From positions 4,650,001 through 4,714,000 of the forward strand of contig NZ_JAUSZX010000001.1 in the NCBI RefSeq assembly GCF_030818015.1: a DNA stretch of 64,000 nucleotides. The letters are read 5' to 3'. The translations under genes and the position numbers were made by a program. The notes under the pieces are model-generated. The model was not told the DNA's origin and made no database searches. It was given only the letters and a program-made list of their open reading frames with translations. Each line of letters begins with the position of its first letter. Within the stretch, counting starts at the first letter, position 1. Source of the stretch: Arthrobacter globiformis (GTDB taxonomy: Bacteria; Actinomycetota; Actinomycetes; Actinomycetales; Micrococcaceae). This document shows positions 8,884 through 35,731 of the stretch, piece after piece.

Positions 8884-8924
8884 TCTCGTCCTTCCGGGAC
8901 TGGCTTGCTTGTTTACTGCTGGTT

Positions 8925-8958: not shown

Positions 8959-8964
8959 AACGGA

Positions 8965-9717: not shown

Positions 9718-9736
9718 TGGTGTTACCTGTTTCTAA

Positions 9737-12530: not shown

Positions 12531-12535
12531 AATTG

Positions 12536-16084: not shown

Positions 16085-16139
16085 CCCGCAAGACTCAACG
16101 CCGCCGGCATCTCAGCTGCACCACAGCTGATCGATGCGG

Positions 16140-17072: not shown

Positions 17073-17097
17073 GTTCTCTCCTTGGTTTCCGTGGGTT

Positions 17098-17113
17098 GCG
17101 TAATCGATTACGC
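17098..17113. promoter_or_regulatory. LacI-type operator GCGTAATCGATTACGC
   Basis: A perfect 16-bp palindrome with central CG in the 138-base gap between the nucleoside hydrolase and the divergent LacI gene. Contains the same 12-base core as 13705-13716. Position is suitable for repression of both genes. Confidence 0.85.
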
Positions 17114-17210
17114 CATTAAGCTTTTGGGATGTCAAGGAATGAACGCCATTGGCGCTCCCCAAGTCTCTATTCTGCGATAATGTTTACGCAGATGAAGGAT
17201 TGGCGGAACG

Positions 17211-20223: not shown

Positions 20224-21411
20224 CTATCGCGCACCCATCAGATGCTCCATGGCCAGCTGGTTGAGCCGGATGAAGGCGAACGAGCGCTCCGCGGCCTTTC
20301 CGGCATCAAACTCTGTGAACGCCGAGCGGTCCGCGAGCAGCTCAGCGGGGGTTTCCCCTGCTGAGAGCGTTGGCTCACCGAGTTCGAAGACGCCGGACGT
20401 TCGGAGTGCTTCCTGCACTTCGGGGTCTGCCCTGAATGCCAGGGCGCGCTCCTTCAGCATCAGGTACATGGACATGTTGGCTTTGGCTGAATCCCACACT
20501 CCGTCATATCCGTCCGTGCGTGAGGGCTTGTAGTCGAAGTGCCGCGGACCTTCGTACCGCGGTCCCTCGTTGGGGAAGCCGTTCTCGAGCAGGTCGACTG
20601 TGAAGAATGCGCTGGTGAGGTCGCCGTGGCCGAACACCAGGTCCTGGTCGTACTTGATGCCGCGCTGGCCGTTGAGGTCGATGTGGAAGAGCTTTCCAGC
20701 CCACAGCGCCTGGGCGATGCCGTGGGTGAAGTTCAGACCTGCCATCTGCTCGTGCCCAGTTTCCGGATTCAGCCCTACGATGTCGCCATGTTCGAGCTGG
20801 GCGATGAAGGCCAGGCCATGGCCGACGGTGGGAAGGAAGATGTCGCCGCGGGGTTCGTTCGGCTTGGGCTCGAGGGCGATCCTGAGACCGTATCCTTTTT
20901 CTTTGATGTAACCAGCTGCCGTGTCGACGCCTTCCTTCATCCGGTCAAGGGCAGCCGAGAGGTCCTTGGATCCGTCGTATTCGCTGCCTTCGCGGCCGCC
21001 CCACATGACGAACGTTTCGGCGCCCAATTCGGCGGCCAGGTCGATATTCGTCAAGACCTTCGCCAGCGCGTAGCGGCGGACCGAGCGATCGTTGGATGTG
21101 AATCCCCCGTCCTTGAAGACCGGGTGGCTGAACAGGTTCGTGGTGACCATGGGGACCTTGAGTCCCGTTTCGGTGAGGGCTGCTTTGAAGTTCTTCAGGA
21201 TGAGCTCGCGTTCCGCGGCGGTGGTCTCGAACGGTATGAGGTCGTTGTCATGGAAGGTGATGCCGTAGGCGCCGATCTCTGCGAGTTTGCGTACTGCTTC
21301 CAGCGGGTCAAGGGCTGCCCGGGTGGGAACGCCGAACGGGTCTCCCCCCGTCCAGCCGACGGTCCACAGGCCGAAGGTGAAACGGTCTTCGGGGGTTGGT
21401 TGTACTGCCAT
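20224..21411 (-). CDS. xylA: Xylose isomerase (class I actinobacterial type)
   Basis: Encodes 395 residues from ATG 21411 (AGAGG upstream; a GTG at 21420 overlaps that site). Converts D-xylose to D-xylulose with two divalent metals. Visible hallmarks: [16 protein letters not shown] near the start, the catalytic His segment [23 protein letters not shown], the metal/substrate motif [11 protein letters not shown] (Glu and Lys), [13 protein letters not shown], and [15 protein letters not shown] (metal-site Asp residues). Length is typical of the Streptomyces/Arthrobacter enzymes. It lies between the oxidoreductase gene and xylB on the minus strand, under probable control of the divergent ROK regulator. 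Confidence 0.96.
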
Positions 21412-21547
21412 GATTAGCACCTCTTTGGGCTAGTTGGTGTTGAGTGTTTTTCGCATGGGCGAAGAGTCGGCGACGGGTCCTGGGCCCCGGCACCGTGACG
21501 GTCTTTGGCGCCTCCGCCAGAGGCGGGCGGCCGTGGGCGGCTGCGTT

Positions 21548-22624
21548 TCAGGGCTGCTGCGGCTCGCTGTGGATGCGTTCCAGGATCTTGACGACTTCGA
21601 GGGCCTCATGCGGTTCGACCGGTACGGGCCCTGTCCCCTGCACGGCAGCAGCGACCCCCCGGTAGAAGGCCGGGTAATTTCCCCGTTCGGTGGGAACCTT
21701 TGAGGGTGCCGGATATCCGGGGGCGGAGACACCCAGCGTTCCCCATGTCTCTGCGGGCTCCGTTCCGTAACGTTCATCAGTGGGCAGGATGCCGGCGGCC
21801 AAAGCGGGTTCCTGGCCGTCCAAGCCGTAGGAAACGTACGCTCCTGCTGTGCCGAGAACACGGAACCGGGGACCGGGCTGGGCGCCGACCCTGCTCATCC
21901 ACAAGCGGGAGCGCACCCCGGATTCATGGGTTAATTCGATGTAGCTGGCATCGTCATTTCCGCCGCCTTCCCGGACGGTTCGAAGGTCTGCCCGTACGGC
22001 GGACACCGGCCCGAAAAGGACCAGGGCCTGATCGATCAGGTGGCTTCCCAGGTCATAGGCCACCCCGCCGCCCAGGGCTGCAGGCGTGACGTCCTGCCAC
22101 CTGGACTCGGTCTTTGGCGCCCAGTGTTCAAAGCTGGATTCGAACTGGTACACCTCACCCAGCTCCCCTGCGGCGAGGATCTTCTTCACGGTGAGGAAGT
22201 CGCCGTCCCAGCGGCGGTTCTGAAACACGGCCAGGGGACGTTGCACCTCTTCCGCTTTACTGATCAGTTCCTCCGCCTCAGTCACCGAAGCGGCGAAGGG
22301 CTTGTCCACGACCACTCCCACACCTTTGTCGAGGAAAGCCGATCCTTGCTCGAGGTGTGCGCCGGGAGGACTGGCCAGCACCACGAGATCAAGGTCGGCC
22401 ACATGCTTCAGGAGTTCGTTGGCATCAGCAACAATGGCGGCACGAGGGTAGTCACGGCTCGCCTGGCGTCTGCGTTCGGGGTCATTTGTTGCAATGAAAT
22501 CCAGCGAGAATTCGGGGCTAGCTTCAATGAACGGGCAATGAAAGACTTTACCTGCAAGGCCGTATCCGACGACGCCTGTGCGGATAGGACCGCCATTCGA
22601 AGGGCCGGCTGTGATGTAGGTCAT
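21548..22624 (-). CDS. Gfo/Idh/MocA family NAD(P)-dependent oxidoreductase
   Basis: Encodes 358 residues. The N-terminal Rossmann motif is VGYGLAGKVFH (about 18-29); VVVDKPFA carries the conserved EKP-like lysine (DKP here), and GGGVAYDLGSHLIDQAL contains the D-x-G-x-H-x-x-D segment that shapes the sugar site. The C-terminal half is the alpha/beta substrate domain. Such enzymes oxidise or reduce sugars or inositols; YdgJ/IolW-like branches share the GLAGKVFH start. It is first in the xyl operon and divergent from the ROK regulator. A xylose dehydrogenase or related side reaction is possible but unproven. Confidence 0.85.
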   Translation of the reverse strand: MTYITAGPSNGGPIRTGVVGYGLAGKVFHCPFIEASPEFSLDFIATNDPERRRQASRDYPRAAIVADANELLKHVADLDLVVLASPPGAHLEQGSAFLDKGVGVVVDKPFAASVTEAEELISKAEEVQRPLAVFQNRRWDGDFLTVKKILAAGELGEVYQFESSFEHWAPKTESRWQDVTPAALGGGVAYDLGSHLIDQALVLFGPVSAVRADLRTVREGGGNDDASYIELTHESGVRSRLWMSRVGAQPGPRFRVLGTAGAYVSYGLDGQEPALAAGILPTDERYGTEPAETWGTLGVSAPGYPAPSKVPTERGNYPAFYRGVAAAVQGTGPVPVEPHEALEVVKILERIHSEPQQP

Positions 22625-22765: not shown

Positions 22766-24037
22766 ATGAGGTTGGAGAATGCATTGCCGGTCAGTAAGGG
22801 CACTTCGCCCAGCCAGGAACCGCCGCGCGGGGCAACGAGGATGGGCAACAATCTGGACAGCGTCCGCCAGCACAACCTCTCCACGATTCTTACCCTTGTG
22901 CACCATGCAGGAAGTGTTCCGCGCGCGGAACTTACCCGCCGCACAGGCCTGAACAGATCGACCATTGCTGCCTTGGTCGGGGAGCTTATTGATCTTCAGC
23001 TCGTCTTCGAAGCCCTGCCGGAAGCCACCAGCCAGGTCGGTCGCCCGAGCTCCGTGGTCCGCACGGCCGCAAGCACTGTGGCGATTGCGGTGAACCCTGA
23101 AGTTGACGCCGTTACCGTGGGCGTGGTCGGCCTGGGGGGCACAGTGTTGAACCGCATCCGGTATGCAACAGAGAAGCCGCCCACGGTAAGGGAAGCTGTC
23201 AATATCACCTCAGCCATCATTGAAGCGATCAGCGCGGGGATGAACTCTGAGAACCGGATTGTAGGCGTTGGAGTCGCAGTGCCAGGGCTCGTCTCCCAGG
23301 AAAGCGGCCGCGTCCGGCTGGCCCCGCATCTTGGGTGGAAAGATGAACCGCTGACCGAGATGCTCACCGAGGCCACCGGTTTCCCCACATCAGCTGCGAA
23401 TGACGCGAGCCTTGGCGCCCTCGCGGAAAGGACTTTCGGGGCAGGGCGCGGGATCGACGACATGATTTACCTTAACGGCGGTGCCAGCGGTGTTGGCGGC
23501 GGAGTTATCTCAGGCGGCGTCGCCCTGGGCGGTGCCAGCGGGTACGCGGGAGAACTGGGACACATGCGGGTACGCAGCAATGGCCGGACCGATACCGCCG
23601 GCGCACACGGCACCCTTGAGTCCGAAGTGACCAGGGAAGCACTGTTGGAAGTCCTTGGCCTGGTGTCCGCAGACACTGAAGAACTTGAACGGGCCCTGTT
23701 TGCCGCCAAATCCCTGGCTGTCCGCTCAGAAGTGAACCGCCAGCTCGATTTCCTCGGCATTGCCCTGGGAAGCGCGATTAACATCCTCAACCCCCGGCTG
23801 ATCATCCTCGGCGGCTTTCTCGGGTCCCTTTACGCCACCGACCCGGACCGCCTCCACAACGCCGTCACGCACGAGGCCTTGCCAGCGGCCTGGAATGATG
23901 TGACCATTTGCCGGCCAAAGCTCGGAACGGACCTGCTCATGGTGGGTGCGGCGGAGTTGGCCTTCGCGGCGCTCCTGGCCGACCCGGCGGGAGTCCTGAA
24001 CGCGGAACCCCGGCCCCTGCTGGAGAAGTCCCTTTAG
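22766..24037 (+). CDS. ROK-family transcriptional regulator (XylR-like), zinc cysteines absent
   Basis: Encodes 423 residues; an alternative ATG at 22841 (MGNNLDSVRQHN) would remove 25 unconserved residues. The N-terminal winged helix (about 29-90) includes VPRAELTRRTGLNRSTIAAL, typical of ROK repressors. The kinase-like domain follows (VGVGVAVPGLV, NDASLGALAERTFGAG, YLNGGASGVGGGVI). At about 263-284 GELGHMRVRSNG runs into DTAGAHGTLES, where ROK proteins normally have a C-x-C-G-x-x-G-C-x-E zinc site; no Cys remains. Divergent from xylA/xylB and followed by aldose epimerase, so xylose-responsive control is likely. Confidence 0.88.
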   Translation: MRLENALPVSKGTSPSQEPPRGATRMGNNLDSVRQHNLSTILTLVHHAGSVPRAELTRRTGLNRSTIAALVGELIDLQLVFEALPEATSQVGRPSSVVRTAASTVAIAVNPEVDAVTVGVVGLGGTVLNRIRYATEKPPTVREAVNITSAIIEAISAGMNSENRIVGVGVAVPGLVSQESGRVRLAPHLGWKDEPLTEMLTEATGFPTSAANDASLGALAERTFGAGRGIDDMIYLNGGASGVGGGVISGGVALGGASGYAGELGHMRVRSNGRTDTAGAHGTLESEVTREALLEVLGLVSADTEELERALFAAKSLAVRSEVNRQLDFLGIALGSAINILNPRLIILGGFLGSLYATDPDRLHNAVTHEALPAAWNDVTICRPKLGTDLLMVGAAELAFAALLADPAGVLNAEPRPLLEKSL

Positions 24038-24056: not shown

Positions 24057-25067
24057 ATGGGTCCTGACGAAATCACTGTATCTAATGGCCATGGACTCGC
24101 CATGACACTCAGCAGCTTCGGAGCGCGTCTCGTTGAACTCAACCTCCCGGACAGGAACGGGCTGGTAGAGAACGTAGTCCTCGGATTTGACGGACTGGCG
24201 CCATACGAACAGCATGCGAACCTGTACCTTGGCTCCACGATCGGCCGGGTGGCCGGACGCGTCGCCGGCGGCCACTTCCTTTCCGGCGGCCTGGATTTAC
24301 AGCTTGATCCCAACGAGGGAGACAACCACCTGCACGGCGGCCGGCACCGAAGCTTCGACCGCGTGGAATGGTCTGTGGCAGCAAGTCACCCCAGCCTTGG
24401 AGCTGGCGTAATCTTCGAGTACGTCAGTCCGCACGGGGAGGAAGGCTATCCCGGTACTCTGCATGCGCGCGCTGAATACGCACTGTCGGAGGACAATGAG
24501 CTGCGGGTCGTCCTGACAGCGACCTGCGACCGGACCACTCCCGTAAATCTGACAAACCACACCTACTGGAATCTGGCGGGCGGCAACGTTCCCATCACCG
24601 GACACCAGCTGATGATCCAGGCGCACAACACGTTGGCGACCAGCGCGGATCTGATACCCACCGGCTCGCTGGTGCCGGTGCCGGGGACGGCGCTGGACTA
24701 CCGGCAGCAACGACGCATCGGCGACGCCCTCCCGGAGGGTGGCGGTGAACCTTGGCCGGGACTGGACCACACTTACCTGTTGGACGACAGCGACGGCAGT
24801 CTCAGGCGAGCCGCCATTCTCTATGACCCAGACAGCGGTCGAAGCGTTGAACTGTTCACCACGGAGCCAGCCCTTCAGGTCTACAGCGCCAACCGGCTGC
24901 CGGCGCTCCAGGGGCGGAACGGGGTGAGTTTCGCCGCGGGCCATGCATTGTGCCTCGAACCCCAAAAAGTCCCCGACTCTCCCGCGCTTCCCGGCCTTCC
25001 CTCCATCGTCGTGCCGGCAGCCCAGGAGTACCGGCACGTGATCTGTTACAAATTCCGCACCCGTTAA
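24057..25067 (+). CDS. galM: Aldose 1-epimerase (mutarotase)
   Basis: Encodes 336 residues. The family motifs occur in order: SFGARLVELNLPDRNG, LYLGSTIGRVAGRVAGG, the first active-site His in DNHLHGG, the catalytic His in VNLTNHTYWNLAG, the Asp in GLDHTYLLDD, and the catalytic Glu in ALCLEPQKVPDSP. Interconverts alpha and beta anomers of aldoses such as xylose, glucose or galactose so that the isomerase receives the right form. It lies 19 bases after the ROK regulator and is probably cotranscribed; as part of the xyl region it fits xylose use. Length is normal. Confidence 0.93.
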   Translation: MGPDEITVSNGHGLAMTLSSFGARLVELNLPDRNGLVENVVLGFDGLAPYEQHANLYLGSTIGRVAGRVAGGHFLSGGLDLQLDPNEGDNHLHGGRHRSFDRVEWSVAASHPSLGAGVIFEYVSPHGEEGYPGTLHARAEYALSEDNELRVVLTATCDRTTPVNLTNHTYWNLAGGNVPITGHQLMIQAHNTLATSADLIPTGSLVPVPGTALDYRQQRRIGDALPEGGGEPWPGLDHTYLLDDSDGSLRRAAILYDPDSGRSVELFTTEPALQVYSANRLPALQGRNGVSFAAGHALCLEPQKVPDSPALPGLPSIVVPAAQEYRHVICYKFRTR

Positions 25068-25451
25068 CTCTCGGCTGCCGGTGCCCGCCCCGACCTTCCG
25101 GCCTTGAACAGCTGCTGACAGGCAAGTTGCTGACCGTCGTTTGTCAAAACATATTGCACGAAGCAACTGCTTCTGCGGCTGAGCGCACGGCAGGAGATGC
25201 GTCAGAGCAGCGCATGTTTGACGCCGAACGCGCCACCGGCCGGCCCCGAAGGCTCCAAAAGTTCCCGTGAACCAAGGTAGTGAGCAGGCGAGCCGCCTGT
25301 CCGCGCGGTAAAAGGGTCCCCCAAAATAAGCATCCAGAAAGCGACTATTGCTTTTTGTTGTTTGAAACCACTATATTGGCACTTAGTGATTCAGGTCACT
25401 TCTGGGGATCTTCTACCACCGCCACTTTCAACGATGAGAAGGAGCGATCGC
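25068..25451. promoter_or_regulatory. Promoter region of the large sugar cluster
   Basis: 384 bases without a gene. A sigma-70-like promoter is visible: TTGCTT (25348-25353), an 18-base spacer and TATATT (25372-25377). The -10 overlaps AACCACTATATTGG (25366-25379), related to the motif in the xyl divergent region, so a repressor could block RNA polymerase here. Confidence 0.5.
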
Positions 25452-27038
25452 GTGACTGAACGCCCAGCCCCGGCTGCTGATGGATTCCTGCTGGACGCCG
25501 ATGGAATCAGCAAACACTATGCCGGCGTTACTGCCCTGGATAGCGTCGGACTGCAGGTTCGTCCGGCCGAAATCCATGCGCTGCTCGGCGGCAACGGCGC
25601 CGGCAAATCGACCCTCATCAATATCCTGTCGGGACTGACCCCGCCAGACGCCGGAACGATCACCCTCTCAGGCGCTCCGCTTGAGCTTCGCCGTCCGAGC
25701 GATGCCTTGGGCAGCGGCATCAACACCATCCATCAGGAACTCTCCCTGGTCCCCGCGCTGACTACCCTGGACAACATCTTCCTCGGCAGAGAGGTCAACG
25801 CACGCTTCATCGGCTTGAACATGAGGCTGGACCGTCGCCGGATGGAGGAACGCGTCCGTGACCTTGCCGCGGAATTCGGTCTATCCGGGGAAGATCTGAA
25901 GCTTCCGGTCGGCGAGTTCGGCGCCCTGAAGAAGCGCGTCGTGGAAATCGTCAAGGCCCTGGCATTCGACACGCGTCTTCTCATCCTGGACGAGCCGACC
26001 TCGGGGTTGGAAGAAGAGGAGCGCCTCAACCTGTTCGAACATATGCGCCGCCTGCGCGACAAGGGTGTCTCCCTGGTCTGGGTCACCCACCATCTGGAGG
26101 AGCTGTACGGGCTCGCCGATACAGCGACCGTGTTCAGGGACGGCCGGAGTGTGGGCACCGTGAACGTGTCCGACACCAGCGTTGACGATCTGCTGGCCAT
26201 GATGTTCGGTATCGCAGCAGGGGAGTTCGGCTCCATGGCCACTGCGCCGGCCGTGACGGAGGCAGAAGAGTCCCGCGAAGAAGTGCTCCGCCTCACCGAC
26301 GTCAACCGCAGCTACATCCTTCGCGACATCTCACTTACTGTCCACAAGGGAGAAATCCTGGGTATTTCCGGCCTGGCGGGCGCGGGCCGCACCGAGCTTG
26401 CCCGGGCCATTATGGGCATCGACAAGATCAGCAGCGGAACAGTGCACCTGAGAGGCGAAGCAGTCCGGTTCTCCGAATCGAGCGCCGCCTACCGGAAGGG
26501 TCTGGCGATGCTCCCCGAAGACCGGAAACAGCTGGGCATCCTGCCCGAGCTGTCGGTTGCGGAGAACATTTCCATCTCAAGCCTCGGCCGTGTCTCGCAG
26601 CTCGGGTTCGTTCTGAAAAACAGGGACGAAGTCGCCCAGGCCGAAAACTATCGTCGGCGGCTTGGTATCAAGACGGCGGACGTCAGGGAGAAAATCCGCA
26701 ACCTCAGCGGCGGGAACCAGCAAAAGGCCATTGTCGCCCGTTGCCTCAACACGAACCCGGACCTGTTGATTTTCGATGAGCCGACCCAAGGGATCGACGT
26801 GTCCGCGAAGGTCGAGGTCCACAACCTCATCCGTGAATTCGTCGCCAACGGCGGCGCCGCCATCGTCATCGCCTCCGAAATCGCCGAACTCGTCGAACTC
26901 AGCCACCGCGTCGTGGTCATGAAAAAGGGCCGCCTCGTGGGCTCGGTCGACCAAGTTCAGCACGCGCTGGTCTCGGGGCAGTTTGAAGCCGTTAAGAACC
27001 GCATCCTCGCGATGTCTGCAGGCAGGACCGAATCATGA
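25452..27038 (+). CDS. Sugar ABC transporter ATP-binding protein, two ABC domains
   Basis: Encodes 528 residues from GTG 25452, with AGAAGGAG seven bases upstream; the longer frame to 25362 would overlap the promoter. Two fused ABC domains as in RbsA/XylG. Domain 1 has Walker A GGNGAGKST and Walker B LLILDEPTSG, but its signature region reads FGALKKRVVEIVKAL rather than LSGGQ. Domain 2 has a degenerate Walker A (GLAGAGRTE), signature LSGGNQQKAIVARCL and Walker B LLIFDEPTQGID. This asymmetry is usual for the family. First gene of a plus-strand run that continues to 35331; the stop overlaps the first permease. Confidence 0.92.
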   Translation: MTERPAPAADGFLLDADGISKHYAGVTALDSVGLQVRPAEIHALLGGNGAGKSTLINILSGLTPPDAGTITLSGAPLELRRPSDALGSGINTIHQELSLVPALTTLDNIFLGREVNARFIGLNMRLDRRRMEERVRDLAAEFGLSGEDLKLPVGEFGALKKRVVEIVKALAFDTRLLILDEPTSGLEEEERLNLFEHMRRLRDKGVSLVWVTHHLEELYGLADTATVFRDGRSVGTVNVSDTSVDDLLAMMFGIAAGEFGSMATAPAVTEAEESREEVLRLTDVNRSYILRDISLTVHKGEILGISGLAGAGRTELARAIMGIDKISSGTVHLRGEAVRFSESSAAYRKGLAMLPEDRKQLGILPELSVAENISISSLGRVSQLGFVLKNRDEVAQAENYRRRLGIKTADVREKIRNLSGGNQQKAIVARCLNTNPDLLIFDEPTQGIDVSAKVEVHNLIREFVANGGAAIVIASEIAELVELSHRVVVMKKGRLVGSVDQVQHALVSGQFEAVKNRILAMSAGRTES

Positions 27039-28090
27039 ACTTCCAGCGGACCACCTCCCGCGTCCTTTCCACTACCGGCGTCCCCATCGCTATCGCCCTT
27101 GTGATCGTTGTCATCGTCTTCCAGATCATGTCGCCAGTGTTCCTGACTCCCGGAAGCGTGCGCGATTACATTAACAACGCAATCCCCATCCTGCTCCTTA
27201 CCGTGGGCGTTTCCATCGTCATCGTCGGCGGCGGCATCGATCTCTCTGTTGGTACTGTGGCCGGGCTCAGCGCCGGCACAACCATGTGGACACTGGTCTC
27301 GGGCGCCCCCACATGGATCGCAGTTCTCGTCGGCGTCGGCACGGGGCTGGTCTTCGGCCTCTTCAACGGGCTCATGATCACCCGTTTCGGCATCAACGAC
27401 TTCATCGTCACCCTGGCCACACTGAACATCGCCGGCGGACTGCTCATCGTGCTCACGGAGCAGGTTCCGCTGCAGGGAGTCACGACTCCCGGCTTCTCCG
27501 AGATCGTGTACGGGAACCTGCTCGGCATTCCCAATGCCTTCTGGATCGCTGCGATCCTCTTCGTGCTCATGCAGTTCTTCCTCATCAAGACAATCTTCGG
27601 CCGGCGCATCTTCGCCATCGGCATCGGCGCATCAGCGGCCAACGTCGCAGGAGTGAACGTCAACCGCGTCAGGCTCGAAACCTTCGTCCTTTCGGGCCTG
27701 CTCGCAGGCGCCGCCGGGGTTCTCCTCGCATCCCGTCTCGGAGCCGTCCAGGCATTCCTCGGCAATGGCTACGAATTCGTTGCGATCGCCGGCGCAGTCC
27801 TCGGCGGTGTCAGCCTCGCCGGCGGCAGGGGCTCAGTCTGGGCTGCAGTCGCCGGCGGGCTCATGCTCGCCAGCCTGCAGCAAGGGCTGCGGCTCAACGG
27901 CGTGGACCCGGTCTACTTCAGCATCGTCACCGGCCTGTGCATCGTCGCGGGCGTCGTCTTTGATCGCCGGATCCAGCAGTTCGCGCTCAGCAGCATCAGA
28001 AGGCGCGGTGGCAGAACATCGTCAACGCCGCCCCCAACAACCAAGAGCGACCGCGAAAACCACTTGCTCAGCACCGGGAAGCAGGACTGA
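27035..28090 (+). CDS. Sugar ABC transporter permease 1
   Basis: Encodes 351 residues of the RbsC family, with about ten membrane segments. IVGGGIDLSVGTVAGLSAG and the late IAGAVLGGVSLAGGRGSVWAAV coupling motif are clear. The C-terminus carries a basic, polar tail (RRRGGRTSSTPPP) absent from the second permease. Overlaps the ATPase gene by four bases and is two bases from permease 2. Two different permeases beside one ATPase imply a heterodimeric channel, as known for LsrCD (AI-2) and YtfT/YjfF (galactofuranose). Confidence 0.9.
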   Translation: MNFQRTTSRVLSTTGVPIAIALVIVVIVFQIMSPVFLTPGSVRDYINNAIPILLLTVGVSIVIVGGGIDLSVGTVAGLSAGTTMWTLVSGAPTWIAVLVGVGTGLVFGLFNGLMITRFGINDFIVTLATLNIAGGLLIVLTEQVPLQGVTTPGFSEIVYGNLLGIPNAFWIAAILFVLMQFFLIKTIFGRRIFAIGIGASAANVAGVNVNRVRLETFVLSGLLAGAAGVLLASRLGAVQAFLGNGYEFVAIAGAVLGGVSLAGGRGSVWAAVAGGLMLASLQQGLRLNGVDPVYFSIVTGLCIVAGVVFDRRIQQFALSSIRRRGGRTSSTPPPTTKSDRENHLLSTGKQD

Positions 28091-28092
28091 CA

Positions 28093-29139
28093 ATGAGCAC
28101 CACAACCACCACCCCAATGAAGGACAACAAGAGCCTGACGGACCGGGCAGCCGGCCGCCTCCTGGTGGACCCGACACTCGGTGTATTGGCCCTGCTGCTT
28201 CTGATCTGCCTGATCTCCGCGTTCGCACTGCCGGTCTTCCTGAACCCATCCAACCTTTACAACCTCCTCAACACCAGCCTGATCGTCATGATCCTGGCCA
28301 TGGGAATGACCGTGGTCCTGATCTCCGGAGGAATCGACCTCTCAATCGGCACCACCATGGCCCTTTGCGCCGGCGTTGCGGCCACAACCATGAACTACGG
28401 ACTGCCGCTCATCGCAGCCCTGCTCGCCGCCCTGGCCACAGGTGCCCTGGTCGGAATCGGCAACGGCCTGCTAATCACCAGGCTCGGCCTGCCTGACTTC
28501 ATCGCCACGCTCGCCATGCTCGGTTTCGCCAGCGGCATCCTCTACATCTGGACCAAAGGTGTTCCGATCATCGGCTACATGGTCCCCGAGTTCTACACGA
28601 TCGGCGGCCTGACCCCGCTGGTGGGACCCCTCACCCTTCCGATGCTGATCGCCCTTGCCGTCGCACTGGTCCTCGGAGGAATCCTCGGCTCCACCCGCCT
28701 CGGAACGCACTTTTTCGCCGTCGGAAGCAGCAAGACCGGCGCCATGCAATCAGGTGTCCGCGTAGACCGCATCCGCGCCCAGGCCTACATCGTCAGCGGC
28801 CTGGCGGCAGCTGTCGCCGGCATCATCATGGCAGGCCGCAACACCAACGTCCCTGCTGACCTCGGCAACGGTTACGAGATCCAAGCGATCGCCGCCGCGG
28901 TCATCGGCGGCGCAGCCCTGACTGGAGGCCGCGGCCGGATCCTCGGCGCCATCCTCGGGGCAATCACCCTGGCCGCAACAGTCAACCTGATCAACCTCGT
29001 CGGCGTCCCGTCCAGCTATCAAAAGATTGTCATCGGCGCCATCCTGGTCGTCGCCGTCCTGGCCAACCGCCTCAGCGCAGTCATCAGCGCCAAGGTGCGC
29101 CAGCGCAGAGCTCTGGTCCTTGAAGGAATCCCTGCCTAA
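28093..29139 (+). CDS. Sugar ABC transporter permease 2
   Basis: Encodes 348 residues of the RbsC family. Motifs: LISGGIDLSIGTTMALCAG, GLPDFIATLAMLGFASG, and the C-terminal AAAVIGGAALTGGRGRILGAI. Starts two bases after permease 1. It has clearly diverged from permease 1 in sequence, so the pair is not a recent duplication. It is followed after 68 bases by the binding-protein gene. The substrate is most likely a monosaccharide, glycoside or polyol consumed by the oxidoreductases downstream. Confidence 0.9.
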   Translation: MSTTTTTPMKDNKSLTDRAAGRLLVDPTLGVLALLLLICLISAFALPVFLNPSNLYNLLNTSLIVMILAMGMTVVLISGGIDLSIGTTMALCAGVAATTMNYGLPLIAALLAALATGALVGIGNGLLITRLGLPDFIATLAMLGFASGILYIWTKGVPIIGYMVPEFYTIGGLTPLVGPLTLPMLIALAVALVLGGILGSTRLGTHFFAVGSSKTGAMQSGVRVDRIRAQAYIVSGLAAAVAGIIMAGRNTNVPADLGNGYEIQAIAAAVIGGAALTGGRGRILGAILGAITLAATVNLINLVGVPSSYQKIVIGAILVVAVLANRLSAVISAKVRQRRALVLEGIPA

Positions 29140-29207
29140 CCCAACTCCAAACCAGCCACGCAGTTGTGGCAAGAAAGCCCCATCCACAAGTGAAGGAAGC
29201 ATCAACG

Positions 29208-30380
29208 ATGAGCTCAACCACAGTGAATACACGGCCAGGCCGCCGCGGCAGCAGGGCCCGTCTCGCCCTCGCCTGCACGGCGACAGCAGCAGCGCTGCTC
29301 CTCACCGGCTGCACCACCGTGAACTCGTCCGGCGGAGGCTCCAACGCAGGAGCCAGCGGCGGCGGAGGCACGGACTACCTCCCTGACGAGACAGTCAAAA
29401 AGATCGTCAACGGCCGTGAAATCAAGGTCGGATTCGCCCCGCCAATCCTCTCCGAGTTTTACACCCAGGTTGAAAAAGCCGCCCAGAACAAGATGAAGGA
29501 ATACGAGGACCGCTTTGGGGTGAAGTGGAAGTGGGAACGCCAGGGAGCCCTGAACGACGCCCACTCCGGCACTGAGACCCTGGGCATCGTGCAGGGATAC
29601 ATCGCCCGCAAGTTCGACGCCGTCTTCGTCTGCTCAGCCGCCAACGCCTCGACCATGCAGGCCCTGTACAAGCAAGGGTCCGCCAAGGGCATTGACTTCT
29701 ACCAGTTCAACTCCACCGAAGAGCTCGCCAACCCTTCCCAGGCCGAGAACCCCACCGGCGGCCTGTCCACCGTGTCCAACATCGGCTACGACGACCGGTG
29801 GCAGTCCGGGTACCTCGCCGGGCAGTACATTGCCAAGCAGCTAAAGGGCCAAGGCTCCATTATCCAGATCATGGGCCCCTCGGGGTCCGACTGGACGAAG
29901 CTGCGTCAGCTCGGCTTCAAGAAGGCCATCGCTGAATACCCGGACATGAAGATTGTCGGCGAAGCAGACGGCGGGTACGTCCGTGACAAGGGACTCACCG
30001 CTGCGCAGGACCTGTTGACGAAGTTCCCGGACGTTAAAGCCATCTACGGCGAGAACGAGGACATGGCCCTGGGAGCCGCCCAGGCTATCGACGCACGGGG
30101 CCTGAAGCACTGGGACGGAACCTCCGGCATCATCACCATCGGCGCCGACGGCCTCGTCTCGGGCATGGACGCCATCAAAGCCGGAAAACTGACCGCCACC
30201 GTGGACGTGAACAGCTCTGAGATGGGCAGCCGGATGATCGAAACCCTCTTCGCCCATGAGTTCCTCGGCCAGGAAGTCAACCAGTTCATCCGCATCCCCA
30301 CCGGCGTCGTGGACAAGTCCAACGTTGACTGGCACGAAGGAGTCCTCAAGAACGTCCTCAGCGGGCCCGGCAAGTACTGA
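29208..30380 (+). CDS. Sugar ABC transporter substrate-binding lipoprotein
   Basis: Encodes 390 residues from ATG 29208 (GAAGGAAGC upstream). The signal has three arginine pairs (RPGRRGSRAR), a hydrophobic core and the lipobox LLTGC, then a Ser/Gly-rich linker. The mature domain is PBP-1-like: EIKVGFAPPILSEFYTQVE, YIARKFDAVFVCSAANAS, NIGYDDRWQSGYLAGQYIA, IIQIMGPSGSDWTKLRQLGF and VKAIYGENEDMALGAAQAI. Longer than RbsB (about 290), with an insert in the first lobe. A perfect 13-bp hairpin follows at 30391-30422, probably limiting read-through into the oxidoreductase genes. Confidence 0.9.
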   Translation: MSSTTVNTRPGRRGSRARLALACTATAAALLLTGCTTVNSSGGGSNAGASGGGGTDYLPDETVKKIVNGREIKVGFAPPILSEFYTQVEKAAQNKMKEYEDRFGVKWKWERQGALNDAHSGTETLGIVQGYIARKFDAVFVCSAANASTMQALYKQGSAKGIDFYQFNSTEELANPSQAENPTGGLSTVSNIGYDDRWQSGYLAGQYIAKQLKGQGSIIQIMGPSGSDWTKLRQLGFKKAIAEYPDMKIVGEADGGYVRDKGLTAAQDLLTKFPDVKAIYGENEDMALGAAQAIDARGLKHWDGTSGIITIGADGLVSGMDAIKAGKLTATVDVNSSEMGSRMIETLFAHEFLGQEVNQFIRIPTGVVDKSNVDWHEGVLKNVLSGPGKY

Positions 30381-30390
30381 CCGGCCACCT

Positions 30391-30422
30391 GTCCCGGTCC
30401 GGTATGGACACCGGACCGGGAC
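30391..30422 (+). terminator. Perfect 13-bp hairpin after the binding-protein gene
   Basis: Arms 30391-30403 and 30410-30422 are exact complements with a 6-base loop. No T run follows. Such stems after binding-protein genes usually stabilise that part of the message and thin out downstream transcription. Confidence 0.6.
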
Positions 30423-30460
30423 CCAGCAAGTTCCTCTGAAAAGCACGAAAGGTTCGCGCA

Positions 30461-32143
30461 ATGAAGCGAAAAATGGACCCGGTCGATGTCGTGATCGTAG
30501 GGCTGGGAGCCGGCGGCGGGCCGGCAGCAAAAGTACTCAGCGAGGCCGGATACAAGGTCGTCGGATTTGATAAAGGTCCCTGGTTGCGCCCGGAAGAGCA
30601 CTATTCGGGAGACGAGCTGAAGTTCCAGAACCGCAGCTACCTGTGGCCGGACGTGAACCTCATGCCCCGCACCGTCCGCAGCGATGACAAGTCCGAAGCC
30701 CGGATCTTCAACTTCTCCCCCGTGCCGTCCAACGTCGGCGGCGGAACGAGTCACATGGCGGGGTGGATGCCGCGGCCGCGTGTCTCGGACTTCATCTTCC
30801 ACTCCCTCCACGGCGCTCTTGAGGGAGCAAGCCTCGCGGACTGGCCCTACCGCTACGAGCATCTCGAGCCCTACCTGACAAAGGTTGAATGGAGCTACGG
30901 CATTTCCGGCCTCGCCGGCGCCGACAAGGGTGAAGGCTTCCGCAGCAAGGCCTACCCCAGTGCCCCGCTTCCCCCTACCAGCTTCGGCAAGAAATTCTAC
31001 GAAGGCTCCAACAAGCTCGGCATCAACTCCTTCCCCCTGCCGATGTCGCACCTGACCGAAGGCAACGCGCTTGGTCGGCCGGCGGTCAACCGGACCAGCT
31101 TCTGGAACCAGTACGGCGACCCCACCCAGACCCGGTCCAGCGTCGCCACGACCTACATCCCGGAAGCCCTGGCCACCGGAAACTTCGAGGTCCGGGCCGA
31201 CAGCTTCGTCCGGGAAGTCAAGGTCGGAAAAGACGGGAAAGCCACGGGAGTCATCTATATCGACCCCAGCGGACTGGAAATCGAACAGGACGCCAGGGTG
31301 GTCATTCTCGCACTCGGCGCCATCGAATCCGCGCGTCTCATGCTCCTGTCCTCATCCAACAAATTCCCCGACGGCCTGGCCAACGATTCAGGACTGGTCG
31401 GCAAGAACGCCACCTTCCACGAGTACATCTTCGCCGTCGGACTCTTCGACAGGGACATGGAGGACCCGCTGCACGGGTGGACCGGGAACTACCAAAGCGG
31501 CGGATCCACCCACTTCTACGAGACAGACGAAAGCCGCGGCCACATCGGCGGAGGGATCATCGCCACCACCCAGATCGGACAGGCCATCAACGCCATCATG
31601 CCCGGACGACCCACCTGGGGACAGGCCATGAAGGACGCCGACCGTGACTACTTCGACTACTCCATGAAGATCGGATTCATCCTCCAGGACATGCCGCAGG
31701 AGACAAACAGGGTCGACTTGGACCCCACCGTCAAAGATGCCTGGGGAATGCCTGTCGCGCGCATCACCAACAAACCTCACGCGAACGATATCGCCATGAG
31801 CAGGTGGCAGATCGACAAGAACCAGGAGATCCTCCAAGCGGCCGGCGCGAAGAAGACGATTCCCGTCTACCTCGGGGACGAGTTCACCGGAAACGCCTGC
31901 CACCAGCAGGGCACCGTGCGGATGGGCACCGACCCTGCCAAGTCCGTGCTGAACGAATGGGGCCAGGCGCACTCCGTCGAAAACCTCTTCGTCCTCGACG
32001 GGGCAGGCTTCCCCACCGCACTCGGCGTGAACCCCACGCTCACGATCATGGCGCATTCCTGGCGCTGCGCGGACTACATCGCCAACACCTACATGAAGGG
32101 CCGCTCCGAACGCCTGAACCTGTCCCCAATCAAAAAATCCTAG
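30461..32143 (+). CDS. GMC-family FAD-dependent oxidoreductase (large subunit)
   Basis: Encodes 560 residues. FAD-binding GLGAGG at 14-19 followed by GFDKG, the second flavin contact NVGGGTSHMAGW, and the GMC C-terminal domain with NACHQQGTVRMGTD (catalytic His) and GVNPTLTIMAHSWRCADYI (catalytic Asn). This resembles the flavoprotein subunit of gluconate 2-dehydrogenase, sorbitol dehydrogenase and glycoside 3-dehydrogenase complexes. No export signal, so it acts in the cytoplasm or at the inner face of the membrane. The next gene encodes a small-subunit-like partner 14 bases away. The substrate is probably an imported sugar, glycoside or polyol. Confidence 0.88.
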   Translation: MKRKMDPVDVVIVGLGAGGGPAAKVLSEAGYKVVGFDKGPWLRPEEHYSGDELKFQNRSYLWPDVNLMPRTVRSDDKSEARIFNFSPVPSNVGGGTSHMAGWMPRPRVSDFIFHSLHGALEGASLADWPYRYEHLEPYLTKVEWSYGISGLAGADKGEGFRSKAYPSAPLPPTSFGKKFYEGSNKLGINSFPLPMSHLTEGNALGRPAVNRTSFWNQYGDPTQTRSSVATTYIPEALATGNFEVRADSFVREVKVGKDGKATGVIYIDPSGLEIEQDARVVILALGAIESARLMLLSSSNKFPDGLANDSGLVGKNATFHEYIFAVGLFDRDMEDPLHGWTGNYQSGGSTHFYETDESRGHIGGGIIATTQIGQAINAIMPGRPTWGQAMKDADRDYFDYSMKIGFILQDMPQETNRVDLDPTVKDAWGMPVARITNKPHANDIAMSRWQIDKNQEILQAAGAKKTIPVYLGDEFTGNACHQQGTVRMGTDPAKSVLNEWGQAHSVENLFVLDGAGFPTALGVNPTLTIMAHSWRCADYIANTYMKGRSERLNLSPIKKS

Positions 32144-32157
32144 AAGGAGGAGAACAA

Positions 32158-32889
32158 ATGGTGTCAAAAGCTGACTGGGAAATAGCACCCATTCACATCG
32201 ATCCTGATACGACCGAAAAGCTATTCTTCACCGACCACGAGTGGGACACGATCGAAGCAGCAGCGGCCAGGATCATGCCCACGGATCACGATCCGGGGGC
32301 CCGCGAGGCACGCGTCATCGTCTTCATCGACAGGTACCTGTCCGGCATCGACTACCTCTACGCCGCAGCCGACGGAAGCGGATTCCTGCAACTGGCAGAT
32401 AAAGATGCCCACGCGGCCCGGGCCCGGAACGCCAACATGCAACGCCTGTACCGGGAAGGCATCCTCGAGCTGGACACGAAGGCCCGGGAACTGCGCGCCC
32501 CATCCTTCAAAGAGGCCTCCGACCAGATTCAGGACGAAGTGCTCGAACAGATCAGCGGCGCGCCCAAACCCGTCCCTGTGTCCCTCACATCCAGGGAGGT
32601 GTACTACTCACGCCTCCAGGGCAACACCGACGAAGGCAAGAGTTTTTTCGACACGCTCTGCCTCCACGTCCGCCAAGGCTTCTACGGCGATCCCGTCTAC
32701 GGGGGAAACAAGGACCAGATGGGCTGGAAAACGGTCGGTTTCGTGGGACCAAAGAGCCTGAAGGACACCATGGACGGCACTTACAGCACCGCCGAGTTCT
32801 TTATCCAGGAGTACGACTGGGAAGATCTGGTCCCCGGTTTCAAACACAGCCAGGATCCCACCTCCAACCAGCAGCAGAACGGTCAGTGA
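32158..32889 (+). CDS. Gluconate 2-dehydrogenase subunit 3-like partner protein
   Basis: Encodes 243 residues from ATG 32158, behind an AAGGAGGAG ribosome site. The FFTDHEWDTIEAAAARIMPT start, then DPGAREARVIVFIDRYL, matches the gluconate_2-dh3 family, small subunits that accompany GMC dehydrogenases. The C-terminal part (FFDTLCLHVRQGFYGDPVYGG, then KTVGFVG) is also family-typical. In well-known members this subunit has a Tat signal; none is present here, suggesting a cytoplasmic complex with the preceding flavoprotein. The partner's role is usually stabilisation or export. Confidence 0.85.
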   Translation: MVSKADWEIAPIHIDPDTTEKLFFTDHEWDTIEAAAARIMPTDHDPGAREARVIVFIDRYLSGIDYLYAAADGSGFLQLADKDAHAARARNANMQRLYREGILELDTKARELRAPSFKEASDQIQDEVLEQISGAPKPVPVSLTSREVYYSRLQGNTDEGKSFFDTLCLHVRQGFYGDPVYGGNKDQMGWKTVGFVGPKSLKDTMDGTYSTAEFFIQEYDWEDLVPGFKHSQDPTSNQQQNGQ

Positions 32890-32975
32890 CCGTCCTGGAC
32901 GACCAAGGTAACCCGTCTCCGGCGCTTCAGAGCCGGCGCAGGACCATCTGAAATAAATCGAGAGGAAAGAAGACA

Positions 32976-33746
32976 ATGACCGCCTTCGAAGACAAGCTCA
33001 ACAAGTACGTCGACCGTTCCTACCGCTTCATCCCCGACACCATCGACCTCAGCAAGACCGTCGTGCACGCACTGGACATCCAGAACCTCTGCCTCGATCC
33101 CAAGGGCGCCGACTACATCGAAAGCGTCGGCGGCGCTCCCTCCGGCCAGGAATCCCTCGGCCCTGCAAAGAGGATCCTGGAACTCGCCCGCGAAAAGGGT
33201 ATGAAGGTCATTTGGTCACTCTGGGGCATGCACCCCGAGGGCGCAGACCTTGGTATCTGGGGACTGAAGTACCCTTCATGGAACGAGCCGGATTCCCCCT
33301 TCAACCACGGCACCTGGAACGGCGCCCTCGTCGACGGATTCGAACCGCAAAAAGGCGAACCCGTCTTCCAGAAGCACCGCAACAGCAGCTTCTACGGGAC
33401 AGCTTTCAACGAGTACCTGATGCAGGACCGAGCGGAGTATCTGGTCATCATCGGGTCATCGACGGCCAATTGCGTCCCCACGACGGCCCGCGACGGGTTC
33501 GACCGCGGCTACAAGGTGATCGTCGTCGCCGACGCGGGGACTGCCATCCCGATCAACACCCACGGCCGCAACCCGGAATTCGATCACGAAACACCCGAAG
33601 GCTACGGCCAATACTGGGAGTCGCTGCGCAACATCCAGGCACAATACGCCGACGTGATGTCCAGCGACGAGTTCGCTGCCCTGGTGGAGCGCTCATCCGC
33701 CGCCCAGACAAAGTCCGGCGAACAGCTGACAAGCGCAACACGCTAA
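32976..33746 (+). CDS. Isochorismatase-like cysteine hydrolase
   Basis: Encodes 256 residues, longer than the usual 180-220. Catalytic triad positions are intact: Asp34 in HALDIQNLCLD, Lys133 in FQKHRNSSFYGT, and Cys166 in SSTANCVPTTARDG. The family hydrolyses amides, carbamoyl groups or enol ethers; no substrate can be named. About 45 extra N- and C-terminal residues extend the fold. It lies between dehydrogenase and reductase genes, with a perfect 13-bp hairpin after it. In a sugar-oxidation pathway such an enzyme might open a ring or remove an amide, which is inference only. Confidence 0.85.
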   Translation: MTAFEDKLNKYVDRSYRFIPDTIDLSKTVVHALDIQNLCLDPKGADYIESVGGAPSGQESLGPAKRILELAREKGMKVIWSLWGMHPEGADLGIWGLKYPSWNEPDSPFNHGTWNGALVDGFEPQKGEPVFQKHRNSSFYGTAFNEYLMQDRAEYLVIIGSSTANCVPTTARDGFDRGYKVIVVADAGTAIPINTHGRNPEFDHETPEGYGQYWESLRNIQAQYADVMSSDEFAALVERSSAAQTKSGEQLTSATR

Positions 33747-33765
33747 ACGCCACAGCACCGCCCCT

Positions 33766-33799
33766 GCCGCCCGCGTCTGCAACCCGGACGCGGGCGGCA
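33766..33799 (+). terminator. Perfect 13-bp hairpin after the hydrolase gene
   Basis: Arms 33766-33778 and 33787-33799 are exact complements with an 8-base loop, GC-rich, no T run. Lies in the 127-base gap before the aldo/keto reductase; a processing or attenuation site inside the cluster, or the end of its first transcript. Confidence 0.6.
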
Positions 33800-33873
33800 A
33801 GCGCAAAAGCACTCCTCATCCTGTGCATCCGCGCACGGAAACCGGCCTGTTCACCAGGTGAAAGAAGAACCCA

Positions 33874-34923
33874 ATGGCCCCACTCAGCATCGCCGCCCAA
33901 CGGACCTTCGGACGTGCCGGCTGGTCAACCACGTTGGCAGGTTTTGGCTCCGTAGCCCTGGGCAACATGGGAAAAGTCATGCCCACCACCGAAGCCCGCA
34001 ATCTGGTCAACCATGCCTGGGAATCAGGCGTCCGCCTGTTTGATACCGCTCCCATGTACGGGCACGGACTGGCCGAATACCGGCTCGCGGATGAACTGAT
34101 GGACCGGAACCGCGACGAGTATGCACTGGTCACAAAGGTCGGCCGTACCCTCCACCCCGCACCCTCAGGCACCTTCGACGCCGGACCTTGGAAAAACACG
34201 CCGCCGATGCGCATGGAATACGACTATTCCTATGACGGCGTCATGAGGCAAGTCGAAGACAGCATGCAGCGAATGGCGACGGACCGCTTCGATGTACTGC
34301 TCGTCCATGACACCGACCGGTGGACGCACGGAGACAGGCACCGTCAACGATTTCAGGAAGCCATAGAGGGTGCGTTCAGAGCGCTTCTGTCCCTCCGTGA
34401 GCAAAAAGTGGTCAGCGCCATAGGGATAGGCGTGAACGAAGTGGACGTATGCATCAACGCGGTGAACATGGTCGACATCGACTGCACGCTGATCGCAGGA
34501 ACCTACAACCTCCTGGACCAGGAGGCAGCCAAAGAGCTGCTTCCCCTTTGCCAGACGCGAGGAATAGCAGTCATCAACGGACGGGTGTTCGGATCCGGCA
34601 TCCTGGCCACAGGAACAATCCGCGGCGCCCGGTTCAACTACGCTCCCGCAAGCGCCGAACTCATCGCGAAGGTACGGCCAATCGAGGATCTCTGCGGCGA
34701 CTACGGCGTATCCCTTGGCGCTGTCGCGGTCCAGTTCGCCGCGTCGCATCCAGCCATCAGCAACGTCTGCATGGGGGCCGGCAGCGTCGAGCAACAGAAA
34801 CAGAACTACTCATGGCTCGAAGAGGAAGTACCCGACGGGCTTTGGAACGAGCTGACTACCAACGGCCTGCTGCCAGCCCACACCCCCTTCCCCGTCGAGC
34901 CTAAACAATCCTCCGGATACTAA
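33874..34923 (+). CDS. Aldo/keto reductase (aldose/pyridoxal dehydrogenase-like branch)
   Basis: Encodes 349 residues. The AKR features are present: GFGSVALGNMG, active-site Asp and Tyr in FDTAPMYGHGLAE, catalytic Lys in LVTKVGR, and the His of VLLVHDTDR. LGAVAVQFAASHPAISNVCMGA is the family's NADP-binding region. The arrangement resembles L-fucose/D-threo-aldose 1-dehydrogenases and the AKR-type pyridoxal 4-dehydrogenase, which oxidise aldoses or aldehydes to lactones. That would suit an oxidative sugar pathway following the GMC enzyme. It lies 12 bases before the GlcG-like gene. Confidence 0.85.
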   Translation: MAPLSIAAQRTFGRAGWSTTLAGFGSVALGNMGKVMPTTEARNLVNHAWESGVRLFDTAPMYGHGLAEYRLADELMDRNRDEYALVTKVGRTLHPAPSGTFDAGPWKNTPPMRMEYDYSYDGVMRQVEDSMQRMATDRFDVLLVHDTDRWTHGDRHRQRFQEAIEGAFRALLSLREQKVVSAIGIGVNEVDVCINAVNMVDIDCTLIAGTYNLLDQEAAKELLPLCQTRGIAVINGRVFGSGILATGTIRGARFNYAPASAELIAKVRPIEDLCGDYGVSLGAVAVQFAASHPAISNVCMGAGSVEQQKQNYSWLEEEVPDGLWNELTTNGLLPAHTPFPVEPKQSSGY

Positions 34924-34935
34924 GGACCCCAACAA

Positions 34936-35331
34936 ATGCTTCAAGAAGCGGAAAAAATCGCCGCCGCAGCCGAAAATGCAGCCGCAGAAGCAGGCGTGAA
35001 CGTGGTTGTCAGCATCGTAGACACACATGGCAACCCGGTTCTCCTGCACAGGATGGACGGCGCACCACTGCACTCCCTCGAGATGGCCTTCCGCAAAGCC
35101 TACACAGCAGCCTCCTTCGATGTGGCCACGGAGGAACTGGCAAACCAAGTACTGCCCGGCCAGCCCCTGTACGGCCTCGCCGTCAACTCCGGCAGCAAAC
35201 TCATCACCTTCGGTGGCGGGGCGCCCACGACGCTTTCGGACGGTCGCAAAGTCGGTGTCGGAATTTCGGGAGGAACTACAGAAGAGGACATCGACATCCT
35301 ACAGAGTGCGCTTGGGCAGACCGTCACCTAA
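34936..35331 (+). CDS. GlcG/HbpS-like small protein (DUF336)
   Basis: Encodes 131 residues. AEAGVNVVVSIVDTHGNPVLLHRMDGA, then AFRKAYTAASFDVAT and GVGISGGTTEEDIDI match the heme-degrading-domain / GlcG / HbpS fold found beside many catabolic operons. It lacks a signal peptide, so it is cytoplasmic. GlcG-like members are linked with glycolate oxidation, PduO C-terminal domains with cobalamin, and HbpS with heme; which applies here is unknown. It closes the plus-strand cluster starting at 25452. Confidence 0.82.
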   Translation: MLQEAEKIAAAAENAAAEAGVNVVVSIVDTHGNPVLLHRMDGAPLHSLEMAFRKAYTAASFDVATEELANQVLPGQPLYGLAVNSGSKLITFGGGAPTTLSDGRKVGVGISGGTTEEDIDILQSALGQTVT

Positions 35332-35731
35332 CTCTTCGCACACACGCCAAGGTTGAAGCTTTGATGGCGTGGCCCTTACCCACAACGGGATGGGCAGCTA
35401 ATCTGTCGAAGCTCTGGCAGAGCAAAACCGGAGCAAGCCACGCACTCCGAACTCGTAATCTGTGCCATCACGGTTTTGAACAGCAACCTCCAGTTGTCCG
35501 GTTGGCGTACACCCCAACCTGACGTCAGGAACGTGTCCAAAAGCTGTCAGATTAGAGTCCAAATTCCTTTTCTGGGCACGAGCCTCATGACGCTCTTAGA
35601 AGTCAACCTGACATCCCGCGGCGGATGTACCGTGGCGTCAACGGTTCCGCCCCAACGTCTGCGGGCGGAGTTCACCACTGGACACCCGAGAGGCCTGTTT
35701 GCCGTCAGCGCCGCTTGCAAGACCGCGCCCT
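35332..35731. other. 400-base gene-free stretch with repeat B copy 3
   Basis: Separates the convergent sugar cluster and ABC exporter genes. Contains repeat B copy 3 (35507-35528). ORFs in the region are short and lack ribosome sites. Likely mobile-element debris plus the two transcript ends. Confidence 0.4.
35507..35528 (+). repeat. Dispersed repeat B, copy 3
   Basis: GTACACCCCAACCTGACGTC then AG; differs from copy 2 (18327-18348) at two bases over 22. Confidence 0.5.

Follow-up and report, generated by a model that had tools for sequence, protein, structure and literature searches.

A xylose-linked operon of Arthrobacter globiformis with a sugar importer, a GMC/subunit-3 oxidoreductase and a dedicated thiol hydrolase, possibly serving the use of a sugar conjugate

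In the window, by which we mean the whole analysed stretch of 64,000 nucleotides from Arthrobacter globiformis, a nine-gene operon at 25452-35331 encodes a CUT2 sugar importer, a GMC flavoprotein, its subunit-3-like partner, a thiol hydrolase, an aldo/keto reductase (AKR) and a GlcG/HbpS-like protein. The GMC protein, subunit 3 and the hydrolase almost certainly constitute one functional module. We favour, with a rough probability of 0.4, the reading that the operon is linked to xylose catabolism and imports a xylose-yielding sugar conjugate, which would be oxidised by the GMC enzyme and hydrolysed by the thiol hydrolase, the sugar then passing to XylA and XylB. All nine genes were found on the + strand in the order given by an earlier, sequence-only reading of this DNA, and the families of all nine products exceeded their Pfam cut-offs:

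25452..27038, +, CUT2 importer ATP-binding protein with two ATPase domains (ABC_tran)
27035..28090, +, importer permease 1 (BPD_transp_2)
28093..29139, +, importer permease 2 (BPD_transp_2)
29208..30380, +, sugar-binding lipoprotein (Peripla_BP_4)
30461..32143, +, GMC flavoprotein with H481/N524 (GMC N and C Pfam domains)
32158..32889, +, gluconate-2-dehydrogenase-subunit-3-like partner without Tat (twin-arginine translocation) motif (PF13618, Gluconate_2-dh3)
32976..33746, +, dedicated cysteine hydrolase with isochorismatase fold and the triad D34/K133/C166 (Pfam Isochorismatase)
33874..34923, +, AKR with D57/Y62/K88/H145 (PF00248, Aldo_ket_red)
34936..35331, +, GlcG/HbpS-like protein (PF03928, HbpS-like)

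One scan of named genome contigs yielded 43 loci with a GMC ortholog (designated by L numbers) in Actinomycetota, Bacillota and Alphaproteobacteria. Subunit 3 was present at 42 of these 43 loci and the same hydrolase subfamily at 39; three of the four loci lacking the hydrolase (L051, L057, L063) lie at contig ends, and the fourth (L058) is a genuine absence. This comparison of GMC neighbourhoods, which the sequence-only reading had proposed, showed that the core set recurs and that the association exceeds chance. In the GMC tree, from which L063 and L065 were left out (GMC gene cut or split), as they were from the GMC conservation counts, the clade of the window is monophyletic and comprises 12 members, the window and 11 relatives (L025-L032, L054, L060, L066). 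Importer, GMC, subunit 3 and hydrolase genes adjoin in ten of these 11 lineage relatives, the eleventh (L030) being a contig end. The same genes occur together with the AKR gene in 8/11, and GlcG is present in 10/11. The closest named loci are those of Pseudarthrobacter sp. AL07 and MDT3-9, whose GMC proteins are 98% identical to that of the window.

Co-occurrence was also seen among 197 genomes of the family. The hydrolase (E 1e-25) was found in three genomes, all of them GMC-positive, and the GMC protein (1e-150) in six; a nitrilase-type enzyme described below (1e-60) was found in two genomes other than those with the hydrolase. All five hydrolase- or nitrilase-bearing genomes thus fall among the six GMC-positive ones, for which the chance is 2.6e-9 if the genomes are taken as independent. 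At 1e-150 the GMC protein is rare (6/396 genomes of the phylum; 4/385 genomes of the class to which the genome of L055 belongs); these two GMC searches and that of the family were alignment-based and scored just the top 3 to 7 candidates per genome.

The coupled or close spacing reported previously was confirmed. The ATPase and permease 1 genes overlap by 4 bases, and the following gaps measure 2 bases (permease 1/permease 2), 68 (permease 2/binding protein), 80 (binding protein/GMC), 14 (GMC/subunit 3), 86 (subunit 3/hydrolase), 127 (hydrolase/AKR) and 12 (AKR/GlcG). The ATP-binding protein starts at GTG 25452, its ribosome-binding site being conserved in three relatives; the starts of the binding protein and subunit 3 were refined to ATG 29208 (29205 is one codon too early) and ATG 32158, respectively. 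Upstream of the operon lies the following element:

25330..25400, +, conserved promoter-like region TTGC...TTTGTTGTT ... TATATT, followed by a GTGA-N6-TCAC palindrome (25386-25399)

This region is kept only in the window, L025, L032 and L060, and was not flagged by a consensus promoter scan. The palindrome is missing from the seven other lineage relatives examined, five of which have another upstream motif in common (read by eye); taken alone, it occurs twice in the window against 0.8 occurrences expected.

Two strong GC-rich hairpins were observed within the operon, 3' of the binding-protein gene (30381-30460, z -2.8) and 3' of the hydrolase gene (33747-33873, z -3.9); they are possible sites of mRNA processing or attenuation. 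They bear on the explanation that the importer and the xylose block described below form a xylose regulon, with the enzymes of 30461-35331 as a separately acting neighbour carried along. Besides the hairpins, the 86- and 127-base gaps before the hydrolase and AKR genes speak for such a division, as does the finding that just 15 of the 28 loci of a sister lineage have a like binding protein next to the enzymes. We consider it quite improbable, given that importer, GMC, subunit 3 and hydrolase genes adjoin in ten of the 11 lineage relatives and that the importer is preceded by a conserved upstream region in close relatives.

The active sites had been described as intact, and alignments bore this out. 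H481 and N524 of the GMC protein are invariant in the 12 sequences compared and conserved at the 95% level in 42. In the hydrolase D34 and C166 are present in 40/40 sequences and K133 in 37/40, with Arg in the other three. D57, Y62, K88 and H145 of the AKR are conserved in all nine sequences compared, two distant matches (L046, L062) having been excluded beforehand.

Among solved structures, the GMC protein is nearest to FAD glucose dehydrogenase and fructose dehydrogenase, with E values of about 1e-30 to 1e-28 and a low similarity (roughly 104-110 bits across some 540 residues). The window protein shares the region of the catalytic His with the large subunits of these enzymes; against the pyranose 2-oxidase model TIGR02462 it scored 57.9 bits, far short of the cut-off of 544.9. 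Fructose and FAD glucose dehydrogenase complexes are exported and contain small and cytochrome subunits. Of the hallmarks of such GMC/subunit-3 dehydrogenases, the operon has the GMC domains with His and Asn and the adjacent subunit 3, and lacks Tat export and a cytochrome c partner. The previously noted lack of a Tat signal in subunit 3 was confirmed and extends to its homologues: the Tat-like motif RRx[FGAVML][LITMVF] was found neither in the 42 subunit-3 homologues compared nor in the five enzymes of the operon, and no open reading frame of at least 80 amino acids at 25001-36000 contains a CxxCH (cytochrome c) motif. Because of these two negative results, oxidation is probably cytosolic, and the electron acceptor is not evident. 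The proposal of a single uptake-plus-oxidation unit with a cytosolic GMC/subunit-3 pair gained support.

Regarding uptake, the best NCBIfam models for the importer ATPase were those for arabinose, xylose and similar sugars, all below cut-off. The binding protein carries a lipobox-like LLLTGC (read by eye) and is closest to the solved chain 2ioy (E 3.6e-29). Vitamin B6 compounds had been suggested among the candidate substrates. Pyridoxine oxidation is suggested by the fact that Microbacterium has a pyridoxine 4-oxidase of the GMC family and a pyridoxal dehydrogenase of the AKR family. We regard this reading as highly improbable: the ATPase scored 381 bits on the B6 importer model NF047930, well below the cut-off of 670, subunit 3 is not known to belong to the pyridoxine system, and the neighbouring genes, including those of relatives, are xylose and sugar-acid genes.

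The hydrolase had been labelled isochorismatase-like. Its presence stands, and the label was refined by the triad and by the fold neighbours (biuret hydrolase, RutB), which indicate an enzyme of the thiol amidase kind with amide hydrolysis as the predicted reaction. It is only about 21-29% identical to biuret hydrolase, RutB, triuret hydrolase and N-carbamoylsarcosine amidase; unlike those amidases it occurs with GMC clusters and fails every NCBIfam cut-off. The earlier proposal that the operon includes a hydrolytic step absent from standard sugar pathways was supported. For the AKR, the closest solved relative is L-galactose dehydrogenase (9w6y, E 6e-28). Presence and tetrad of this enzyme agree with what had been stated, while the further proposal that it makes lactones derives solely from this weak relationship.

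The unit does not end at 25452. The sequence-only reading recognised the operon and left out a xylose block on its upstream side:

18737..20149, -, xylB, xylulokinase-like FGGY kinase (FGGY N and C; TIGR01312 370.1 bits, just under the cut-off of 380.25)
20224..21420, -, xylA, xylose isomerase, listed from GTG (710 bits against a cut-off of 447 on TIGR02631, the model for Arthrobacter xylose isomerase)
21548..22624, -, Gfo/Idh/MocA oxidoreductase (Pfam)
22766..24037, +, ROK-family regulator (PF00480, 137 bits)
24057..25067, +, aldose 1-epimerase (mutarotase; PF01263, 257 bits)

Linkage of these genes was found in the 11 lineage relatives as follows: ROK 11/11, mutarotase 10/11, Gfo/Idh 8/11, xylA 7/11 and xylB 4/11, with some misses not real, as the stretches of L025, L030, L031, L032 and L060 end near the block. 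The block lies on either side and in varying orientation, in at least three arrangements. None of its five genes was found in any of the 28 sister loci. Because of this linkage in relatives, the unit is larger than 25452-35331, and xylose offers the best indication of what the end product is. The linkage suggests, short of proof, functional coupling to xylose. No common 14-base word (up to two mismatches) was found among the upstream regions of abcA, gfo/ROK, xylA and mro. In the present genome and related ones, eight further xylA loci (L136-L143) have xylA-xylB and neither this importer nor a GMC gene; they include a second xylA of the present genome (C1:561507), 67% identical to that of the window.

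In the mechanism that we propose, the CUT2 importer would take up a small sugar conjugate yielding a xylose-type aldose. This substrate, like each reaction, the reaction order, the amide and the electron acceptor, is something we infer. The GMC/subunit-3 pair would oxidise a carbinol of the sugar in the cytosol, using H481/N524. Hydrolysis by the thiol enzyme would follow, with acyl-Cys166 as intermediate; its target might be an acyl bond, an amide being the likeliest, in the oxidised compound or its non-sugar part. Resetting the redox state of the sugar would fall to the AKR or, in its absence, to the Gfo/Idh enzyme; the mutarotase could then equilibrate the sugar and XylA/XylB convert it to xylulose 5-phosphate, and GlcG may assist in some way. 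Observed were the genes themselves, with their catalytic residues intact, their conserved linkage and their co-occurrence.

The sister lineage comprises 28 loci, assigned by record title to Actinomycetota, Bacillota and Alphaproteobacteria, and contains hydrolase, GMC and subunit 3. A DJ-1/PfpI protein is encoded at 28/28 and an enolase-superfamily (cycloisomerase-like) dehydratase at 27/28 of these loci, L048 being a short contig. Further genes encode PfkB/KDG-kinase types (20/28), KDPG aldolase (17/28), a lactonase candidate of the SMP-30 or metallo-beta-lactamase type (19/28) and dihydroxyacetone kinase (9/28). The dehydratase of L052, the one form compared with solved structures, is nearest to 5olc (E 6e-96) and 4ggb (AtGCI, galactarolactone cycloisomerase). 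The former (DauB) is the 3,6-anhydro-D-galactonate cycloisomerase of the DauABC route of carrageenan catabolism (PMC5698469). As in that route, in which a 2-keto-3-deoxy-galactonate kinase follows, a dehydratase closest to DauB is found in the sister lineage; the available part of the source gives no GMC protein or thiol hydrolase for DauABC (PMC5698469). The lineage of the window lacks the dehydratase branch.

These genes carry the strongest rival, an aldonolactone route in which a lactone, made from a free aldose through C1 oxidation by the GMC enzyme or the AKR, is opened to an aldonate by the cysteine hydrolase. In a variant, the hydrolase opens an aldonamide formed from a glycosylamine. 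Within the sister lineage, the aldonate would undergo dehydration and pass through 2-keto-3-deoxygluconate (KDG) and its 6-phosphate (KDPG). FAD glucose dehydrogenase, a C1 oxidiser, is among the nearest solved relatives of the GMC protein, and the cycloisomerase-like dehydratase, KDG-kinase, KDPG-aldolase and lactonase types of the sister lineage fit such a route. Dehydratase or KDG enzymes occur, however, in none of the 11 relatives of the window, seven of which carry xylA, whose product needs an aldose; moreover, the separate lactonase-type gene at 19/28 sister loci would make the hydrolase redundant. We hold this route to be somewhat doubtful as an account of the window, though it may apply in one lineage and the release of xylose from a conjugate in another, should the GMC enzyme act on different sugars.

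The DJ-1 proteins also raise the idea of a repair module, in which the oxidase yields reactive dicarbonyl sugars and damage is cleared by the thiol hydrolase together with DJ-1 (sister lineage) or GlcG (lineage of the window), none of which would then take part in the carbon route itself. On the PfpI/YhbO deglycase/protease model the DJ-1 protein of L043 scores 162 bits, above the cut-off of 139; DJ-1 and GlcG, encoded at 28/28 and 10/11 loci of their respective lineages, co-occur in 0 of the 73 rows described below; and the thiol hydrolases are of two unrelated folds. Repair enzymes are usually general, whereas this hydrolase subfamily was restricted to GMC-positive genomes among the 197 of the family, and we judge the idea unlikely. 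Separately, GlcG/HbpS-like genes were seen next to GMC/subunit-3 genes beyond the lineage of the window (L051, L071, L078, L087, L088); GlcG may have a general role together with such oxidases.

GMC clusters, more distant ones included, were compared in 73 rows. Some of these are duplicates (L073 and L034 share one contig, as do L096 and L056, L101 is the window, and L100 overlaps L062), and two are distant GMC genes (L080, L081). The isochorismatase-type hydrolase was found in 44 rows, a nitrilase-type enzyme (CN_hydrolase) in ten, an IolE-type TIM barrel in six, none of these in 13 and two types in 0. The nitrilase-type rows (L068-L070, L075, L076, L078, L079, L090, L091, L100) lack the first hydrolase; most contain an AKR, and several a Gfo/Idh enzyme and a zinc alcohol dehydrogenase. 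The best models and solved relatives of the enzyme include those for formamidase and aliphatic amidase, with model scores far under cut-off, and by this similarity it is a predicted thiol amidase, formamidase-like and unrelated in fold to the hydrolase of the window. An amide is the bond usually cleaved by both hydrolase families. Two nitrilase-type pairs were 81% and 67% identical, as against only 38% and 36% for the accompanying GMC proteins, and the clusters fall on different branches of the GMC tree; since hydrolase identity so far exceeds GMC identity, the enzyme appears to follow the reaction and not the GMC lineage.

The IolE-type barrel occurs without a thiol hydrolase in L072, L074, L077, L085, L086 and L099, with Gfo/Idh in 4/6. 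No IolE-type match was found in the cluster of the window or in the 54 thiol-hydrolase rows, neighbouring XylA being kept apart in the count and DUF1080 not being searched with a model of its own. Mutual exclusion of barrel and thiol hydrolase gave a Fisher's p of 1.6e-4, which overstates the significance as the rows are related by descent. We tentatively entertain the wider possibility that two unrelated thiol hydrolase folds replace the IolE-type barrel in the bond-cleaving step that follows GMC/subunit-3 oxidation, in an undescribed sugar-conjugate route whose released sugar is set by the lineage; this would be xylose here, with sugar acids or tagatose-type enzymes elsewhere.

Several observations weigh against the release of xylose from an oxidised conjugate. 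L058 has GMC and subunit 3 without hydrolase, and 13 of the 73 rows, some cut by contig ends, have neither hydrolase nor IolE barrel. GlcG is missing in one lineage relative and the AKR in three (L030, L031, L054); because of the latter absences, the AKR is not obligatory, which argues against a fixed role for it. XylA itself belongs to the PF01261 TIM-barrel family, so that the contrast between hydrolase and barrel is valid only for the IolE type. Linkage to xylA may reflect shared regulation only, and the sugar-acid route of the sister lineage fits C1 oxidation to an aldonate better than aldose release. No glycosidase or recognised enzyme cleaving oxidised sugars was found in the cluster, and we know of no amide-containing substrate that suits all these sugars.

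No described pathway with this gene set was found in the literature searched, in line with the earlier statement. Two known systems are similar in spirit in that they oxidise and then cleave; the set of the window is a member of neither because location, missing cytochrome and hydrolase type differ. In the LacABC system, LacA is a GMC protein and LacC is subunit-3-like. The accessible part of its description places the lactose 3-dehydrogenase LacABC and a DUF1080 3-ketolactose hydrolase of Caulobacter at the membrane and in the periplasm (PMC9007349). As there, the operon combines a dedicated sugar dehydrogenase with a candidate hydrolase, a sugar reductase and a transporter close by; unlike that system as so described, it has no Tat motif or CxxCH protein and has a thiol hydrolase (PMC9007349).

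The other system is that of the glycoside 3-oxidase PsG3Ox and C-deglycosidases of Pseudarthrobacter siccitolerans; what is available of its description indicates a likeness in genus (Pseudarthrobacter) and in GMC oxidation followed by bond cleavage (PMC10646112). It differs in that no C-deglycosidase was recognised in the cluster of the window. A second GMC/subunit-3 cluster of the genome of the window (L074, C1:449360-451054), with a CUT2 importer, an SDR protein, a Gfo/Idh enzyme and two xylose-isomerase-like (IolE-type) TIM barrels, resembles the glycoside-oxidation type and appears nearer to the PsG3Ox type than the operon does. The GMC match of the window to 7qf8, which we take to be PsG3Ox, is weak (E 3.6e-10).

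If true, the proposed scheme would describe a catabolic route of three phyla and give a function to two amidase subfamilies, possibly also to GlcG and a DJ-1 subfamily, and the xylose block would tell which sugar should be released. By our own reading, the record names of the loci suggest an origin from soil, plants, cold places and freshwater.

Finally, some further arrangements were seen. In Pseudonocardia kunmingensis the nitrilase-type (L100) and isochorismatase-type (L062) clusters adjoin, each with its own GMC gene. Eleven sister loci (L035-L037, L039, L041, L042, L044-L046, L053, L062) contain a second, distant GMC gene, preceded in L036, L042 and L044 by a second subunit 3 (by eye). 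Elsewhere in the window, at 7900-18206, another CUT2 importer region with two LacI-type regulators (importer and regulators by eye) also encodes a PfkB/ribokinase-like kinase, a GATase1-like protein, a phosphotriesterase-family hydrolase and a nucleoside hydrolase; it looks like a region for nucleoside or sugar scavenging.

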